A stretch of 64,000 bases of DNA from Thermocrinis ruber (GTDB lineage Bacteria > Aquificota > Aquificia > Aquificales > Aquificaceae). The stretch's first letter is position 1, and each line of letters begins with the position of its first letter. Where the stretch lies: assembly GCF_000512735.1 (NCBI RefSeq), contig NZ_CP007028.1, positions 248,001-312,000 on the forward strand, in the 5' to 3' direction. The notes under the pieces are model-generated. The model did not search any database and had not been told where the DNA came from. It saw only the letters and a program-made list of their open reading frames with translations. Shown here in pieces: positions 2,324 to 21,310 of this stretch. The translations under genes were made by a program, and so were the position numbers.

Positions 2324-3173
2324 TCAATCTCGGGCGTTCCCTTAAACACTCTTCTTTTAGGGTTATGTTCCAAGGTCCCTTGTGCACTAAGCGTCTGTAA
2401 AGCCTTGTTATAGTGTCCTTTAGGTATCTCCAAAAACCTTTTCCCTTTGTTTGCTTTACAAACTCCACCTTGACCTTTTCCACCTTTTTTCCCTTTTGAC
2501 ACCTTCTCCAGTTGTTCTCCAAACTCTTCCTGAGCTTTTCCACATCAACGCCATAATACACATTGGGAAGATTCTTTGCCAGCTCTAAGGCTTCCCACCA
2601 GCATTTGGCACAATCTTGGATGGTTGTTCCTTTAACCGCCTTTTCAAGAACCTCAAAGAAGACCGCATCCTTTTTGAACCTTTCTTTCTGCAACTCCGAG
2701 TAGTGCATGTACTCCTCATAAAGCTCTTCGTTGAAGATATAAACACCCAGATGGATGGCATCTTGAGGGTTCCATAGCTTACTGTAGCTAAGCTTGTGGG
2801 CTATACTCCAATACTTAACTACCCTGTTTGAAAACCCGTAAAAATCCTCTAAATATTGCTCATACAGACTCACAAAGAACAGGTTATCTTCCTGCAGCTT
2901 GTAAATATCCTTCCCAACGTACACATTCCCGTATATGTCAGTGATCTTAAGGAGGTTTAGCTCCACCAGAATATCCTTCCATTGGCTCCTACTTGCCCTG
3001 AAGCTTCTGTAAGCACAACCCAAGAACTGATCCAAGCCAATTGAAAAATTCCCCTCCTTCTTTACAAGCTGGATGTAGCAAAGTAAGTAAAGCAGTAGTT
3101 CCCTTTTGCTTTGGTCCTCCAAAACTTCCAAAAACAGGCTCTCAAGTCTGTCCCTTTCTCTTAACTCCAGCAC
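2316..3173 (-). CDS. Protein of unknown function (285 aa)
   Basis: Not recognised. A soluble, charged protein rich in Tyr, Trp, Leu and Lys with no signal peptide or membrane segment. Visible details are a CAKCWW motif around residue 200 and a strongly basic C-terminal third (KKVEKVKVEFVKQTKGKG and RLYRRLVHKG), which could bind nucleic acid or membrane surface, although nothing proves it. The start ATG at 3173 is the first in the frame, 46 bases after the end of secD. It overlaps the HD gene by 8 bases, suggesting translational coupling. It probably belongs to a lineage-restricted family. Confidence 0.7.
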   Translation of the reverse strand: MLELRERDRLESLFLEVLEDQSKRELLLYLLCYIQLVKKEGNFSIGLDQFLGCAYRSFRASRSQWKDILVELNLLKITDIYGNVYVGKDIYKLQEDNLFFVSLYEQYLEDFYGFSNRVVKYWSIAHKLSYSKLWNPQDAIHLGVYIFNEELYEEYMHYSELQKERFKKDAVFFEVLEKAVKGTTIQDCAKCWWEALELAKNLPNVYYGVDVEKLRKSLENNWRRCQKGKKVEKVKVEFVKQTKGKGFWRYLKDTITRLYRRLVHKGPWNITLKEECLRERPRLNV

Positions 3174-3219
3174 AGAGTTAATTTTAATCCCTTACAGCTA
3201 ACTTGCCACCATCATATTT

Positions 3220-4704
3220 TTATATTCTGAAAGCCTTTAGTTTGTGTAGGACTTCAAGAAGAAACTTGGCAAAATACACGTTTGACACAAAAGAGGCTAT
3301 TGTTCCGAGGGTTAAGGTGGTGGCAAAACCCTTTACCGGACCACTGCCAAACTGAAAGAGTATTAGCGCTGCAACCAAGAGTGTTATGTGAGTATCAAAG
3401 ACTGCACTCAAAGTTCTCCTGTAGCCAAGCTCTATTGCCTTTCTTATGCTGTTCCCAAGCCTCAGCTCTTCCTTTACCCTCTCAAAGATCAGCACGTTGG
3501 AATCTACCGCTATTCCCATGTTCAGTATTATCCCCGCAATGCCGGGTAATGTTAAAGTGGCACCCAAAAGAACCATGCCAGCCCATAGCATAAGGGCGTT
3601 GAGGATTATAGAAAGGTTGGCGGTTATGCCCGCAGTTTTGTATCTGAACAAAAGCAAAAGGGCTAAGAGTACAAAGCCCAAGACACCGGCCTTTATCCCC
3701 TGCTCTATAGCGTCCCTACCAAGGCTTGGTCCTATAACACTCTCCTGCAAGAAATCAACCTTTGTGGGAAGAGCACCAGCTCTAAGCACAATGGCAAGCT
3801 CCTTAGCTTCATCCAAGGTAAATTGCCCAGTTATCTGCCCAGTGCTGGTTATTCTGCTTCTTATAACCGGTGCGGAAATTACCTTTTTATCCAACACTAT
3901 GGCAAGGGCTCTGCCTATGTTTTTCTCGGTAGCTTCTCCAAACTTCTTTGCCCCTTCGTCTGTTAGCTCAAAGCTAACCGCAGGTCTTCCAAACTCATCC
4001 TGAGAGGTGTAGGCGGTCTTTAGGTCCGCCCCCGTTATAACCGCTGTCTTTTCCACCAAAAACCACTGGGTGTTGTCCCTTGAAGGAAGTAGCTCCAGAT
4101 CTGGTGTTAGTTTTTTTTCAAGGTCTTCCCTGCTGCCCGCATCAACTACAAGCTTTAGCTCCAAGAGGGCGGTTTTTCCTATAACAGATTTGGCCCTCTC
4201 CAAATCCAAAATACCCGGTAGTTCCACCAGAACCCTATCCTGCCCCACCTTGGTAATGACTGGTTGAACCACTCCCAGTTCATCTATTCTTTTCCTCAAC
4301 ACTTCAATGGTTTGGCTTATAGTTCCCTCCCTTAGGGCAGATATCTCCTGCTCTTTTAAAGCAAGCAAGACATAACCTTTGCCCCTTTCCCTTATCTCAA
4401 GACGTGGGAAGTTCTTTTGGATCACCTGCTCTATTTTAGCGTCCTCCAAAAGCTCTACCTTTATACCCTCTTTGCTTGCCAGAACATCAAGCACGGGAAC
4501 TCTCTCCTCCCTCAGTTTATCGTATAAATCTTTACTCAGCCTTTGATATTCCTGTTCCAAGGCGTAAGAAAGGTCCGGTTGGAGCAGTATAGACACACCA
4601 CCCCTTAGGTCCAGCCCAAGATTTACAGGTTTGTAAAAGACAATTCCCACGCAGGCTACCCACAGCAACAAAAAGGCGAAAAGATTTGCGTAAAAGTTTT
4701 TCAT
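3220..4704 (-). CDS. secD: Protein-export membrane protein SecD
   Basis: 494 residues, normal for SecD. The N-terminal membrane segment is followed by GLDLRGGVSILL, a large periplasmic region containing the P1 domain, and RKRIDELGV and VELPGI motifs. The C-terminal five-helix RND-type domain contains GIAGIILNMGIAVDSNVLIFERV. SecD works with SecF at the SecYEG translocon and uses the proton motive force to pull proteins out. No secF follows here: the next gene downstream is the unknown 285-residue protein, so secF must lie elsewhere. The gene is divergent from the OmpA-type gene. Confidence 0.97.
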   Translation of the reverse strand: MKNFYANLFAFLLLWVACVGIVFYKPVNLGLDLRGGVSILLQPDLSYALEQEYQRLSKDLYDKLREERVPVLDVLASKEGIKVELLEDAKIEQVIQKNFPRLEIRERGKGYVLLALKEQEISALREGTISQTIEVLRKRIDELGVVQPVITKVGQDRVLVELPGILDLERAKSVIGKTALLELKLVVDAGSREDLEKKLTPDLELLPSRDNTQWFLVEKTAVITGADLKTAYTSQDEFGRPAVSFELTDEGAKKFGEATEKNIGRALAIVLDKKVISAPVIRSRITSTGQITGQFTLDEAKELAIVLRAGALPTKVDFLQESVIGPSLGRDAIEQGIKAGVLGFVLLALLLLFRYKTAGITANLSIILNALMLWAGMVLLGATLTLPGIAGIILNMGIAVDSNVLIFERVKEELRLGNSIRKAIELGYRRTLSAVFDTHITLLVAALILFQFGSGPVKGFATTLTLGTIASFVSNVYFAKFLLEVLHKLKAFRI

Positions 4705-17975: not shown

Positions 17976-18478
17976 ATGTCCCATGTTATCTACGCTGGGT
18001 ACGGCTCTAATCTACCTAAGGAAAGATTCCTGGCTTATATTAAGGGCGGTACTTTTATGGGGATACATTACGAAGGCTGTAGAGACAAAACGGAACCTGA
18101 ATCTATTGGATGGATGTGGGTTCCATATAGGGTTTACTTTGCAAAAAGTTCTGGAAGGTGGAATAATCAGGGAGTAGCCTTCTTATCCTGTGAGAAAGAA
18201 ACTGACTCAGAGTATCATGCAGTAGTCAGGCTTTGGAAAATAAAGGAAAGCCAGCTTGAAGATTTGCAAAGACAAGAGGGAAAAGGGTGGTATGGTGAAA
18301 TAATCACACTGGGGGAAAAGGACGGATTGAAGATACTTACCTTCACTGGATGCTGGTATGATGAAAAAAAAACACACCCTCCCAGCTCTATTTGGATGTT
18401 CTTAAAAAAGGACTAAAAGAAACAACAGGTTGGACAGATGAAGAGATTGACAAATACTGGGAGAAGTTTTTGAAGTAG
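17976..18478 (+). CDS. Gamma-glutamylcyclotransferase-fold (GGCT/AIG2-like) protein, frame broken at an A9 run
   Basis: The N terminus has YAGYGSNL, the substrate-loop signature of the GGCT fold, and QRQEGKGWYGE carries the conserved acidic residue region. The direct frame stops at 18414-18416 (146 residues). Just before, nine A residues at 18364-18372 mark a slip: with one more A the protein continues as NTPSQLYLDVLKKGLKE... and ends at 18476-18478 near KYWEKFLK. The PSxxYLxxLxxG tail is typical of this family. The coordinates given are for the joined reading (about 167 residues). The gene is either sequence-error affected, decaying or read by slippage. A strong AAGGAGGGG precedes the start. 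Confidence 0.75.
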
Positions 18479-18688
18479 AACTAGGCTGTGAGGCTGTTTT
18501 ATAAATTCCCTATTGGAACAATCCTTCAGCCTATAACCCTTGTGTAGGCTGTCAGAAACTGCTGAGAATGTGGGTTATATATAGTGTATGATGGTAGTTA
18601 GGATAAGAAGCAAAAGTGTGAGCCTTCCTAACAAGGGAGGGCTTTCTCTGAGGGGTCTTTGGGCCCCTTATTGCGGGGAGGTAGGCTA
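18479..18688 (+). other. Non-coding leader region with inverted repeats
   Basis: 210 bases without a convincing gene. It contains a perfect 7-bp inverted repeat CAGCCTA/TAGGCTG (about 18527-18551), an A+T-rich promoter-like stretch (TATATATAGTGTATGAT, about 18574-18590), and two adjacent hairpins just before the next gene: AGCCTTCC pairing with GGAGGGCT (about 18620-18642) and AGGGG pairing with CCCCT (about 18650-18669). The arrangement would fit a structured 5' leader. No known riboswitch class was recognised. Confidence 0.4.
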
Positions 18689-19039
18689 ATGGCTTACCTC
18701 TTCGTCTATGGCACCCTCAAAAGGGGTGGATCAAGGCACAGCCTCTTAAAGGGCTATCCTTTCTTAGGGCGTGCCTTGGCAAGGGGCTTTGCCCTTTATG
18801 ACCTCGGCGCCTACCCTGGGATGGTTCCCGGAGATGGAGTAGTACGTGGAGAGGTCTATGAAGTCCCAGAAAGGCTCCTTAGGGAGCTTGACTGGGTGGA
18901 AGGGGCTCCTTTCCTCTTCAGGAGGGAGCTTATTGAGGTGGTCCTTGAGGACCACACTCCTTTGCGTGCCCACGCCTATCTGTATAACAGAGAGGTGGAG
19001 GGTGCGGCTTTGGTGCCTTCCGGTGAATGGAAGGTATAA
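18689..19039 (+). CDS. Gamma-glutamylcyclotransferase family protein (YtfP/GGACT-like)
   Basis: 116 residues from the ATG at 18689, preferred to upstream starts because GGGGAGGTAGGCT lies directly before it and YLFVYGTLKRGG must sit at the N terminus. VRGEVYEV and LDWVEGAPFLFRRE, with the catalytic-type Glu at residue 71, are standard for the family. Such enzymes release 5-oxoproline from gamma-glutamyl compounds, although many family members have no known substrate. It is the first gene of a three-gene operon with 12- and 14-base gaps, ending at a terminator at 20701. Confidence 0.9.
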   Translation: MAYLFVYGTLKRGGSRHSLLKGYPFLGRALARGFALYDLGAYPGMVPGDGVVRGEVYEVPERLLRELDWVEGAPFLFRRELIEVVLEDHTPLRAHAYLYNREVEGAALVPSGEWKV

Positions 19040-19051
19040 GAGGAGGTCCCC

Positions 19052-19855
19052 ATGGGAGCAAGTGCAGAACCCTTTGACCTAAGGCATGGAAAAATAAAAT
19101 TAGTTTTTGAACCGTACCCACAAATTACTAAAAGCCTTTACACACTACCTATTAGGTTCCCACGGGAATGGAGACAAAAGCTATATGTGGAAACAACTAC
19201 GCCCTACTACACAAAAGAGGAACTCCAAGATGTAGATGAAAATGGAGAACCTAAGGCAAAGGTTCTACCTTTCACTGGCGGTCCGTTTGTTCATCCAAGA
19301 GATATGTGGGAATTGGTAAAAAGCCTGAGAGAGTTCATGAACGGAGAGAGGGACAAGGTCTATATATCCCTTGTGAATAACATAGATAGGGACCCAATGT
19401 GTGAAATTAGCTCATCGCCTAACGGAGAGAAAGCTTTGGTATATCTGAGAGTGCAAGGCAAAACCAACTCCGGCACGATAAAGAGAGGGAGAATAGGCTT
19501 TGACCCGCAGGAGCTTAACTCCTTTTTGAGGTATTTAACCCTTCACGCCCAAATGGAAATGGCGATAATAAAGGAAAGGCAGGTAGCCGTTTTCAGGAGA
19601 TGGACGGAGGAGTTCTTTAGCTACGACGTCGCTCCCATGAAGGGTATAATTACACCCCAGATGAGGGCTAATGTCCTAAAAATGCTGTATGAGTATCTAC
19701 AGGGCAATAGGGATCTAAAGCCTGTTGATTTCAAAGACAAGCTAATATTCAAGGTAGATAAGACTTCGGGTAATCTCCTGATTATTACCACCCTTAGACC
19801 TCCGGTAGAACTTACCTTAGAGGAGGTAAAAGAGCTTTATATATTCCTAAGCTGA
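19052..19855 (+). CDS. Protein of unknown function (267 aa) in an operon with GGCT and NYN-like genes
   Basis: Not recognised. No signal peptide or membrane segment. The N-terminal half has many aromatic residues and short strands (KIKLVFEPYPQ, LYTLPIRFPREW). A central strand region (KVYISLVNNIDRD, KALVYLRVQGKTNSG) leads to a helical stretch around 165-215 (LRYLTLHAQMEMAIIKERQ). The C terminus returns to strands and ends VELTLEEVKELYIFLS. Excellent AGGAGGT ribosome binding site before the ATG. The tight spacing suggests it acts with the two neighbours. No function is claimed. Confidence 0.75.
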   Translation: MGASAEPFDLRHGKIKLVFEPYPQITKSLYTLPIRFPREWRQKLYVETTTPYYTKEELQDVDENGEPKAKVLPFTGGPFVHPRDMWELVKSLREFMNGERDKVYISLVNNIDRDPMCEISSSPNGEKALVYLRVQGKTNSGTIKRGRIGFDPQELNSFLRYLTLHAQMEMAIIKERQVAVFRRWTEEFFSYDVAPMKGIITPQMRANVLKMLYEYLQGNRDLKPVDFKDKLIFKVDKTSGNLLIITTLRPPVELTLEEVKELYIFLS

Positions 19856-19869
19856 GGGGAGGTGGTAAG

Positions 19870-20691
19870 ATGTCCAAGAAGGTCAAAAAGGTTATGGTTA
19901 TTGACTCCCAGTGGTATCTGGGAGCGGATCAAACTCATCTTATAATGCAACTACGGAAAACTTTTCCAGAGGCACCTATATACTTCGCGGTCAATACTAA
20001 GGCAGACTACTGGCAAAAGGTGGGAGAAAAGCTTCGTAGTTTGTGGGAGCGTTATGGTGTTCAGTTAGAAGAGACGGAAAAGATTGAAATGGACATGATA
20101 GATAAGCTGGCAAGCAAACATGAAGCAGAAAAAGTTGTTATCGGATCAAATGACAGTATTCTACTAACCACTCTAGCAGAGCATTCGATGTTAAAGCCTA
20201 TCTATCTTAGAATAACCTATAAGAGAAATAGGTATGAATGGCTTAAACCCCATCCTGTCTTTGAAGGGTTGCGGGAAATTGGCTACACTGTGATTGATAT
20301 AAGGGTTGCCAATAGAGTAGAGGGTAGCCTCGCAAGGATATTGGGCTTAAGCTTTAATGCAGTTTTGAAACTTTGGGATGAAAAGGAAAGGTTTGAAGAG
20401 AGCGTTCAGATCGCAAGGGAAAAAGTGCTTCCCAAAATTAACGTAGAGCTTACTTTAGAGGATTTCAAGGCCCTGTGTTTCAAAGAAGGAGTAGCTCACC
20501 CCTTTGAATCTGCATACTTTCTGGCTTATTATGGAGACATTAAATTAAGAAATGATCATGGCAATGTTCTTCTCCTAAGAAATGTGAATACCTCTGAGGA
20601 AGTAAAAAATCAAGAAGAGCCACCAAAAGGCATACTTTCCAGAATGTTCCAGCCCTTCCTCAGGTTTTTCTCTAAACCAGAAAAGGAGTGA
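19870..20691 (+). CDS. Protein with NYN/PIN-like N-terminal pattern (putative RNase-like), 273 aa
   Basis: The first ~115 residues follow the order of a NYN/PIN-type Rossmann nuclease. A first strand VMVIDSQ ends in Asp12, a second strand is PIYFAVN, a helix MDMIDKLA contributes Asp75/Asp78, and a strand-turn VVIGSNDSILLTTLA contributes Asp95. This resembles the acidic quartet of NYN nucleases, but overall identity to known members cannot be checked here. The C-terminal part is helical and ends in a basic tail (FLRFFSKPEKE). It has a GGGGAGGTGG ribosome binding site 14 bases after the preceding gene and a terminator 10 bases after its stop. Confidence 0.6.
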   Translation: MSKKVKKVMVIDSQWYLGADQTHLIMQLRKTFPEAPIYFAVNTKADYWQKVGEKLRSLWERYGVQLEETEKIEMDMIDKLASKHEAEKVVIGSNDSILLTTLAEHSMLKPIYLRITYKRNRYEWLKPHPVFEGLREIGYTVIDIRVANRVEGSLARILGLSFNAVLKLWDEKERFEESVQIAREKVLPKINVELTLEDFKALCFKEGVAHPFESAYFLAYYGDIKLRNDHGNVLLLRNVNTSEEVKNQEEPPKGILSRMFQPFLRFFSKPEKE

Positions 20692-20700
20692 ATATTGCTT

Positions 20701-20722
20701 GCCCCCACTGGGGCTTTTGTTT
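20701..20722 (+). terminator. Rho-independent terminator of the GGCT-unknown-NYN-like operon
   Basis: GCCCC and GGGGC form a perfect 5-bp stem with a CACT loop, followed by TTTTGTTT. It lies 10 bases after the stop of the NYN-like gene. Confidence 0.85.
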
Positions 20723-20803: not shown

Positions 20804-21310
20804 TTAAACCCAAGACTCGTATTCCATCACCTGCTCAAAGGTATAAGGGCATTCCTTAGGGAAATCTTTTTCCGTAGGAAGTCTGCCAAAGTATTTTTTA
20901 GCAAGGTCGTAGTTTTGAGGCTCTTTGAACCAGTTAATCAACCTGTAAACTGCCAACTCCCATGCAGTTTGTATATTTTCCCTTTCTTGGGCTTTTGCCT
21001 TTACGGACGGGTGTCTTTTAAAGATAACCGCAAGTTCATTCCTTGCATTGTATATGCTTTTTATCCAGCTGTGTCCTACATATTCTCTGTATCTGAAGTT
21101 TTCCCACTTGTAAAGGTGTTCCAAGATTATCGCCATAAAGCTAACCGCACTGTCCAGATACCTCTGCCCCATATCCTCCATCTCCTCCAACAGGTTCTCC
21201 CAATCTACGAGGTCATATTCTTTGTTTTTGAGAAGTCTGAGATTTTCCTGCACCCACAGATAAAAGTCCTTTTCATAAAGTTCTTTTAGGTTTTGGATTT
21301 TTTGCTCCAT
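20804..21310 (-). CDS. DUF29 family protein
   Basis: 168 residues. LYEKDFYLWVQENLRLL, then WENLLEEMEDMGQ, HLYKWE and HPSVKAKA follow the conserved course of DUF29, an all-helical family of unknown function common in cyanobacteria, Aquificae and proteobacteria and often found in variable chromosome regions. The gene stands alone, convergent with the NYN-like operon and divergent from dnaK. The ATG at 21310 precedes the conserved N-terminal motif directly. Confidence 0.85.
   Translation of the reverse strand: MEQKIQNLKELYEKDFYLWVQENLRLLKNKEYDLVDWENLLEEMEDMGQRYLDSAVSFMAIILEHLYKWENFRYREYVGHSWIKSIYNARNELAVIFKRHPSVKAKAQERENIQTAWELAVYRLINWFKEPQNYDLAKKYFGRLPTEKDFPKECPYTFEQVMEYESWV

Follow-up and report, generated by a model that had tools for sequence, protein, structure and literature searches.

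A GGCT gene of a duplicated module beside candidate nucleic-acid-binding and PIN/NYN-like genes in Thermocrinis

LabA/DUF88-type NYN proteins (LK-nucleases), which frequently carry a fused OST-HTH winged-helix domain, have in VPA0982 (PDB structure: 2qip) a reference structure within the PIN/NYN superfamily, and the combination of DUF88 with an OST-HTH domain has been described (PMC2848206). PC4-like proteins are known in phages and mobile elements, e.g., AcrIIA22 and a protein of T5 (PMC8545432), and hot-spring Hydrogenobacter, a genus related to the one considered here, has been reported to contain ICE-like sequences that include T4SS genes (PMC9039060). The locus described below is compared with these systems, as well as with the GGACT/AIG2-like family (PF06094), with the Whirly, MRP1-MRP2 and PURA folds, and with F-type elements that encode TraC, TraU, TraH and TraN together with a TraI_2/HD relaxase-like protein.

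The window, that is, the whole analysed stretch of 64,000 nucleotides (G000:C1:248001-312000), belongs to a complete 1.52-Mb Thermocrinis (Aquificota) genome, G000; the comparison set consisted of 136 Aquificota genomes, among them G053, a MAG of a sister Thermocrinis species, and G027, from another genus.

The three-gene locus and the GGCT module

Three open reading frames lie end to end on the plus strand of the window: a GGCT/GGACT protein with the AIG2-like gamma-glutamyl cyclotransferase fold (18689-19039, 116 aa), P0002 (19052-19855, 267 aa) and P0003 (19870-20691, 273 aa), separated by 12 and 14 bases; the second and third genes are preceded by Shine-Dalgarno-like sequences (gaggagg and ggggaggtgg). 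An earlier note, made from the sequence alone, had read this arrangement as a compact operon with its own leader and terminator, and the ORF check bore out its genes, coordinates, gaps and ribosome-binding sequences. Survival of the cluster in relatives, on which that reading hung, was found as well: the trio is found in G053 and G056 at the corresponding site of the chromosome, next to cytochrome and Lit-like genes, and the locus is decayed in G054, where GGCT is accompanied by P0002 with an internal deletion and P0003 is missing. Comparison of Thermocrinis species indicates purifying selection on all three genes (dN/dS 0.18-0.33, as compared to 0.04 for dnaK); the value is 0.18-0.26 for GGCT against orthologs at the same locus and, where the pair is intact, 0.30-0.33 for P0002 and 0.19-0.24 for P0003. 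No empty site was obtained for comparison: the cytochrome and dnaK flanks are apart in G051 and G052, and in G055 the contigs end.

The terminator that the note called clean does exist as a terminator-like hairpin (20701-20714, plus strand; GCCCC-ACTG-GGGGC followed by TTTTG), which has a six-pair version in G053, but the stem has only 5 bp and such sites are not in excess in the region (5 found vs 4.0 expected). Repeat tools detected no CRISPR-like repeats near the locus. A second gene of the GGCT superfamily, AIG2_2-like and with a YGSN motif, is located just upstream (17976-18416); it is frameshifted near its C-terminal end, where an A-run is two A longer than in the 166-aa orthologs of G053 and G056. 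On the other side, a DUF29 gene occupies 20804-21310 on the minus strand; the second GGCT island of the same genome (L060, see below) has a copy of it, 78% identical in DNA, and G053 has a tandem duplicate.

The GGCT protein matches PF06094 with an E-value of 1.4e-30 and 106.7 bits, above the curated cut-off of 22.8, and has the YGTL motif, which places it in the GGACT/AIG2-like family; its homologs are found in 57 of the 136 Aquificota genomes. Unlike what is usual for that family, the gene travels in a duplicated module with three hairpins at the 5' end. The module, which includes the leader, is a DNA repeat of about 515 bp (18543-19056, plus strand), delimited by blastn against relative loci and by junction comparison. 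A second copy, about 90% identical, is found in the same genome (G000:C1, approximately 929132-929649; L060); blastn detects further copies at about 90% identity in G053 (C110, L061) and in G027 (L019), and a partial one in G055 (L064). In the other G000 copy and in G053 C110, a 475-aa gene is downstream and a class-II amidotransferase-like gene is upstream; in G027, a relative of P0003 follows, P0002 is absent, and of the amidotransferase upstream a remnant is left. GGCT and its leader are an independent duplicated module, separate from the P0002-P0003 pair.

Two other neighbourhoods of GGCT-type genes were noted. The second island (L060, G000:C1:920000-939000) contains, closely spaced, the GGCT module, the amidotransferase-like gene, a PIN protein, an HTH and IrrE/M78 protein, DUF29 and several transposase-like genes. 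In G052 (L063:1495-8413), a type I cas cluster (Cas5, Cas3) is preceded at a short distance by one GGACT and one AIG2_2-like gene; another gene (2344-3360) intervenes.

The leader folds better than 200 of 200 dinucleotide shuffles (z -3.6), into hairpins H1 (18620-18644), H2 (18650-18669) and H3 (18678-18700), all on the plus strand; both the start codon of GGCT and its Shine-Dalgarno sequence lie within H3. The three hairpins are retained in eight copies, with 96.9% of cells paired. The changes seen in these eight copies are one-sided and compatible with pairing, with no covariation or compensatory replacements, and a functional RNA is neither established nor refuted by the alignment; the Rfam search gave no family at the gathering score, and the matches below it resembled chance. 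The structured leader is real as a fold; it belongs to the GGCT module and not, as had been proposed, to the trio.

The junction between GGCT and P0002

In the other module copies and in the trio loci of G053, G056 and G054, the sequence after the stop codon of GGCT is GAGGTCCCCATGGGG(G)(A/G)CC with a T-rich stretch behind it, and the two form a hairpin; in G053 it reaches -18.9 kcal/mol with flanking sequence (z -3.6). On its 3' side, relatives and other copies have AAACCAAAGACAAAGGAGGT and then the next gene. We call this hairpin terminator-like because the consensus terminator scan did not list it, probably because its T-run pairs into the stem. The junction in the window (19040-19062, plus strand) still has the 5' arm of the old hairpin, GGTCCCC (19045-19051), but has lost the 3' arm together with the T-run and the former ribosome-binding site, in a net deletion of about 53 bases. 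P0002 here starts within the former loop and is four residues shorter than its G053 counterpart.

Since the relatives keep the hairpin, whereas the window has lost the 3' arm, the T-run and the ribosome-binding site, the tight 12-base join of GGCT to P0002 is a derived state, peculiar to this genome; the module bears a 3' hairpin in every copy but this one, and elsewhere it is linked to the class-II amidotransferase-like gene. With the hairpin deleted, GGCT and the pair would be cotranscribed here by read-through.

Predicted folds of P0002 and P0003

P0002 was described in the earlier note as unlike anything recognised, and so it proved: no sequence family came out above chance in Pfam, NCBIfam, PADLOC, PHROGs or PDB sequences. 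A model built from four sequences is poor (mean pLDDT 51). When it was compared with known structures by Foldseek, the first 14 rows were all Whirly or trypanosome MRP chains (E 0.04-0.4, probability up to 0.89), and in VIA rows 1-11 were Whirly, MRP or Drosophila Pur-alpha, with Z of 5.9-7.1, where Z of about 7 is within the range of chance matches. The better-modelled C-terminal part (193-267) aligns with WHY1 over 67 residues at 2.0 A (Z 7.1), residues 3-198 align separately to folds of the Whirly class, and predicted strands and helices fit β4-α units. Assignment to this class is based on the agreement of two aligners on one fold class, and not on the score. The units do not resemble each other in sequence, and profile comparison with shuffles gave no signal of internal repeats. 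Unlike a Whirly protein, P0002 appears to have more units and is prokaryotic, and it has no sequence match to the Whirly, MRP, PURA or PC4 proteins that head the structural matches of its low-confidence model. Most likely, as far as the model goes, P0002 (19052-19855, plus strand) binds single-stranded DNA or RNA through Whirly/PC4-type β4-α units.

Pairs of small β-rich proteins were also seen within other Aquificaceae F-type clusters (L120:5691-6847, L123:1568-2817 and L124:6020-7353). Of nine pairs compared with P0002, a single one scored, its value being reached in 52 of 20000 shuffles, and the phmmer E-value was about 1; that these proteins are distant counterparts of P0002 is, on such sequence comparisons, possible but unproven.

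For P0003 (19870-20691, plus strand), the model derived from five sequences is better (pLDDT 77, pTM 0.69) and consists of a putative NYN/PIN/FEN-like domain at about 5-145, a helical, winged-helix C-terminus at about 174-241, and a low-confidence tail. Residues 5-145 fold into an α/β domain for which the best VIA row is 2qip (Z 9.6, 131 residues, rmsd 3.7), and E. coli ExoIX (Z 8.3) and T5 FEN, a 5'-exonuclease (Z 6.8), are also matched; generic and NAD(P)-type Rossmann folds are close, at Z 7-8. Foldseek gave mostly generic Rossmann matches, and NYN surfaced only via VIA. Residues 174-249 match winged helices of Scc1-C and of an OCCM subunit (VIA, Z about 7). This single predicted model supports a PIN/FEN/NYN-type fold with a C-terminal winged helix, in line with the NYN/PIN-like nature that had been suggested for the last gene.

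Of the Asp pattern proposed at the same time (Asp12, Asp75/78, Asp95), D12 and D95 are invariant in the five members, as are G92 and N94, but D75 and D78 vary. The middle acidic position is E or D in the Thermocrinis copies and K in G027. As judged from these alignments, the acidic catalytic set appears to be only partly kept. The paralog on a G053 contig (see below) keeps the IDAPN motif; the chromosomal copies have IDSQW or IDVQW, i.e., the NYN Asn is replaced by Trp.

The likeness of P0003 to LabA/DUF88-type NYN proteins consists of the predicted PIN/FEN-type domain with 2qip as the best match, a winged-helix region after it, an acidic residue ending strand 1 and another past strand 4. The differences are the Asn to Trp change in chromosomal copies, the variable middle position (E/D/K), and the lack of any NYN match in sequence: Pfam NYN (PF01936) matches none of the five members, and the hhalign profile comparison with Aquificota NYN proteins gave a probability below 1%. 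Z of 9.6 to 2qip is also lower than 17.4, the value reported for a CRISPR-associated NYN protein compared with 2QIP (PMC11346440). The genome's own PF01936 match is elsewhere (G000:C1:316891). Relatives of P0003 were likewise sought in Pfam, NCBIfam, PADLOC, PHROGs and PDB sequences, and nothing above chance was found.

Distribution, mobile elements and origin of the trio

Each of the two proteins is known from four of the 136 genomes: P0003 from G000, G053 (two loci), G056 and G027, and P0002 from G000, G053 (two loci), G056 and, as a broken copy, G054. Profile scans of the 136 genomes gave only marginal matches beyond these direct homologs, and no relatives of P0002, P0003 or their contig paralogs were found among viral contigs, phages and plasmids.

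The additional G053 copies have a different setting, with no GGCT beside them. The P0002 paralog (45% identical) is on C131, a 52-kb contig with F-type TraC, TraG, TraH, TraU, TraN, TraE, TrbI and TraD-like genes, where a 105-aa ORF alone separates it from a TraI_2/HD relaxase-like gene, whose TraI_2 score is under the curated cut-off. This F-type cluster (L058, L015, L016) also has a DnaB-like gene and a helicase. The P0003 paralog (44% identical) is on C137, a 12-kb contig of putative mobile-element type, where a topoisomerase gene lies upstream of it and beta clamp and HTH genes are close by; C131 and C137 are separate contigs of one MAG. A small membrane-protein gene is common to the chromosomal loci, the second GGCT island and the conjugative contig, and the DUF29 gene to the chromosomal loci and the second island. 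The P0002 paralog sits inside a gene cluster of the F type, whereas the genome of the window has no TraC, and only the pair and other small genes shared with elements remain on its chromosome. Recognisable P0002 or P0003 was not found in other F-type elements of the family.

We favour, at a probability of about 0.55, the view that P0002 and P0003 are captured chromosomal genes for nucleic-acid handling, of common ancestry with genes of mobile, conjugative-type elements, and that a GGCT gene unrelated to them has become their neighbour. We count in its favour the 45% and 44% identical paralogs on mobile-element-type contigs, restriction to Thermocrinis and one other genus among the 136 Aquificota genomes (marginal matches aside), the predicted NYN/PIN fold of P0003, the ranking of Whirly, MRP and PURA folds for P0002 by two aligners, GGCT-P0003 without P0002 in G027, decay in G054, modularity of GGCT, hairpin loss, and purifying selection. 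We count against it the pLDDT of 51 and best Foldseek E of 0.04 for P0002, with its dissimilar repeat units; the lack of an NYN profile match for P0003, one acidic position of which may be E, D or K; the position of the paralogs on two contigs of a MAG, of which C137 is a putative element; and the F-type elements of the family in which neither protein is recognised. From their predicted folds, P0002 would coat or present single-stranded nucleic acid, and P0003 would contact nucleic acid via the winged helix and cut it, or once have cut it, with a PIN/NYN-type acidic pocket (D12/D95). The natural role may be to process or protect the single-stranded DNA of the element or its transcripts, and so to serve its transfer or expression; the chromosomal copies may have a related role in RNA or ssDNA processing, possibly domesticated, or may interfere with incoming elements. 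An interaction between P0002 and P0003, and the direction in which the genes have moved, we infer.

The earlier note had proposed a toxin-type or RNA-processing device with GGCT as a binding or switch partner. Spelled out, P0003 would act in it as an RNase toxin and P0002 as the antidote or targeting subunit of that toxin, with GGCT sensing a ligand or serving as the binding partner. The compact gene order in this genome, the predicted PIN/NYN fold, the loss of P0003 along with decay of P0002 in G054, and retention of the pair under purifying selection all speak for such a switch. The part assigned to GGCT is not supported, as the gene belongs to a separate module with other neighbours, is parted from the pair by a hairpin in relatives, and is not adjacent to the G053 paralogs; an obligate toxin-antidote pair fits poorly with P0003 occurring without P0002 in G027 and with paralogs on separate contigs of G053; and neither P0002 nor P0003 matches a toxin-antitoxin family in Pfam, NCBIfam or PADLOC. 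We regard this device as very improbable.

Housekeeping RNA maturation or decay, by a pair unlinked to mobile elements and with contig copies acquired from the chromosome, would agree with dN/dS of 0.19-0.33 and with an NYN/PIN and winged-helix layout resembling that of RNA-processing nucleases (PMC2848206), and is nonetheless quite unlikely, given a very patchy occurrence (three intact loci and partial ones in 136 genomes), the decay in G054, and how closely the P0002 paralog is linked to conjugation genes. To a defence role, in which element-derived chromosomal copies of P0002 would recognise transferred ssDNA and P0003 would cut it or its transcripts, we give similarly little weight: three species have kept the chromosomal copies intact at one locus, element-side paralogs exist within the same genus, and the neighbouring DUF29 and membrane-protein genes are common to a second island, but PADLOC gave no match and G053 has both the chromosomal pair and the contigs that carry paralogs. 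A bolder form of the captured-gene view, which we consider rather unlikely, is that a prokaryotic Whirly-like binder and a divergent NYN-winged-helix nuclease would be an undescribed working pair by which Thermocrinis conjugative elements protect or process transferred ssDNA or its transcripts, and that the chromosomal copy of this pair would have been domesticated, possibly against incoming elements, its expression being newly coupled to the GGCT module by terminator loss.

Under the captured-gene view that we prefer, the trio would be a product of its history and not a toxin switch built for the purpose. It illustrates that an operon of tidy appearance may have been patched together recently: here the tight, device-like gap is a deletion absent from relatives. 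Two nameless families gain a likely identity, based on fold and open to testing, and a link to conjugation-type elements in a thermophile lineage that branches deeply. If the Whirly-like assignment is true, a bacterial mobile element would carry a fold known chiefly from plant organelles.
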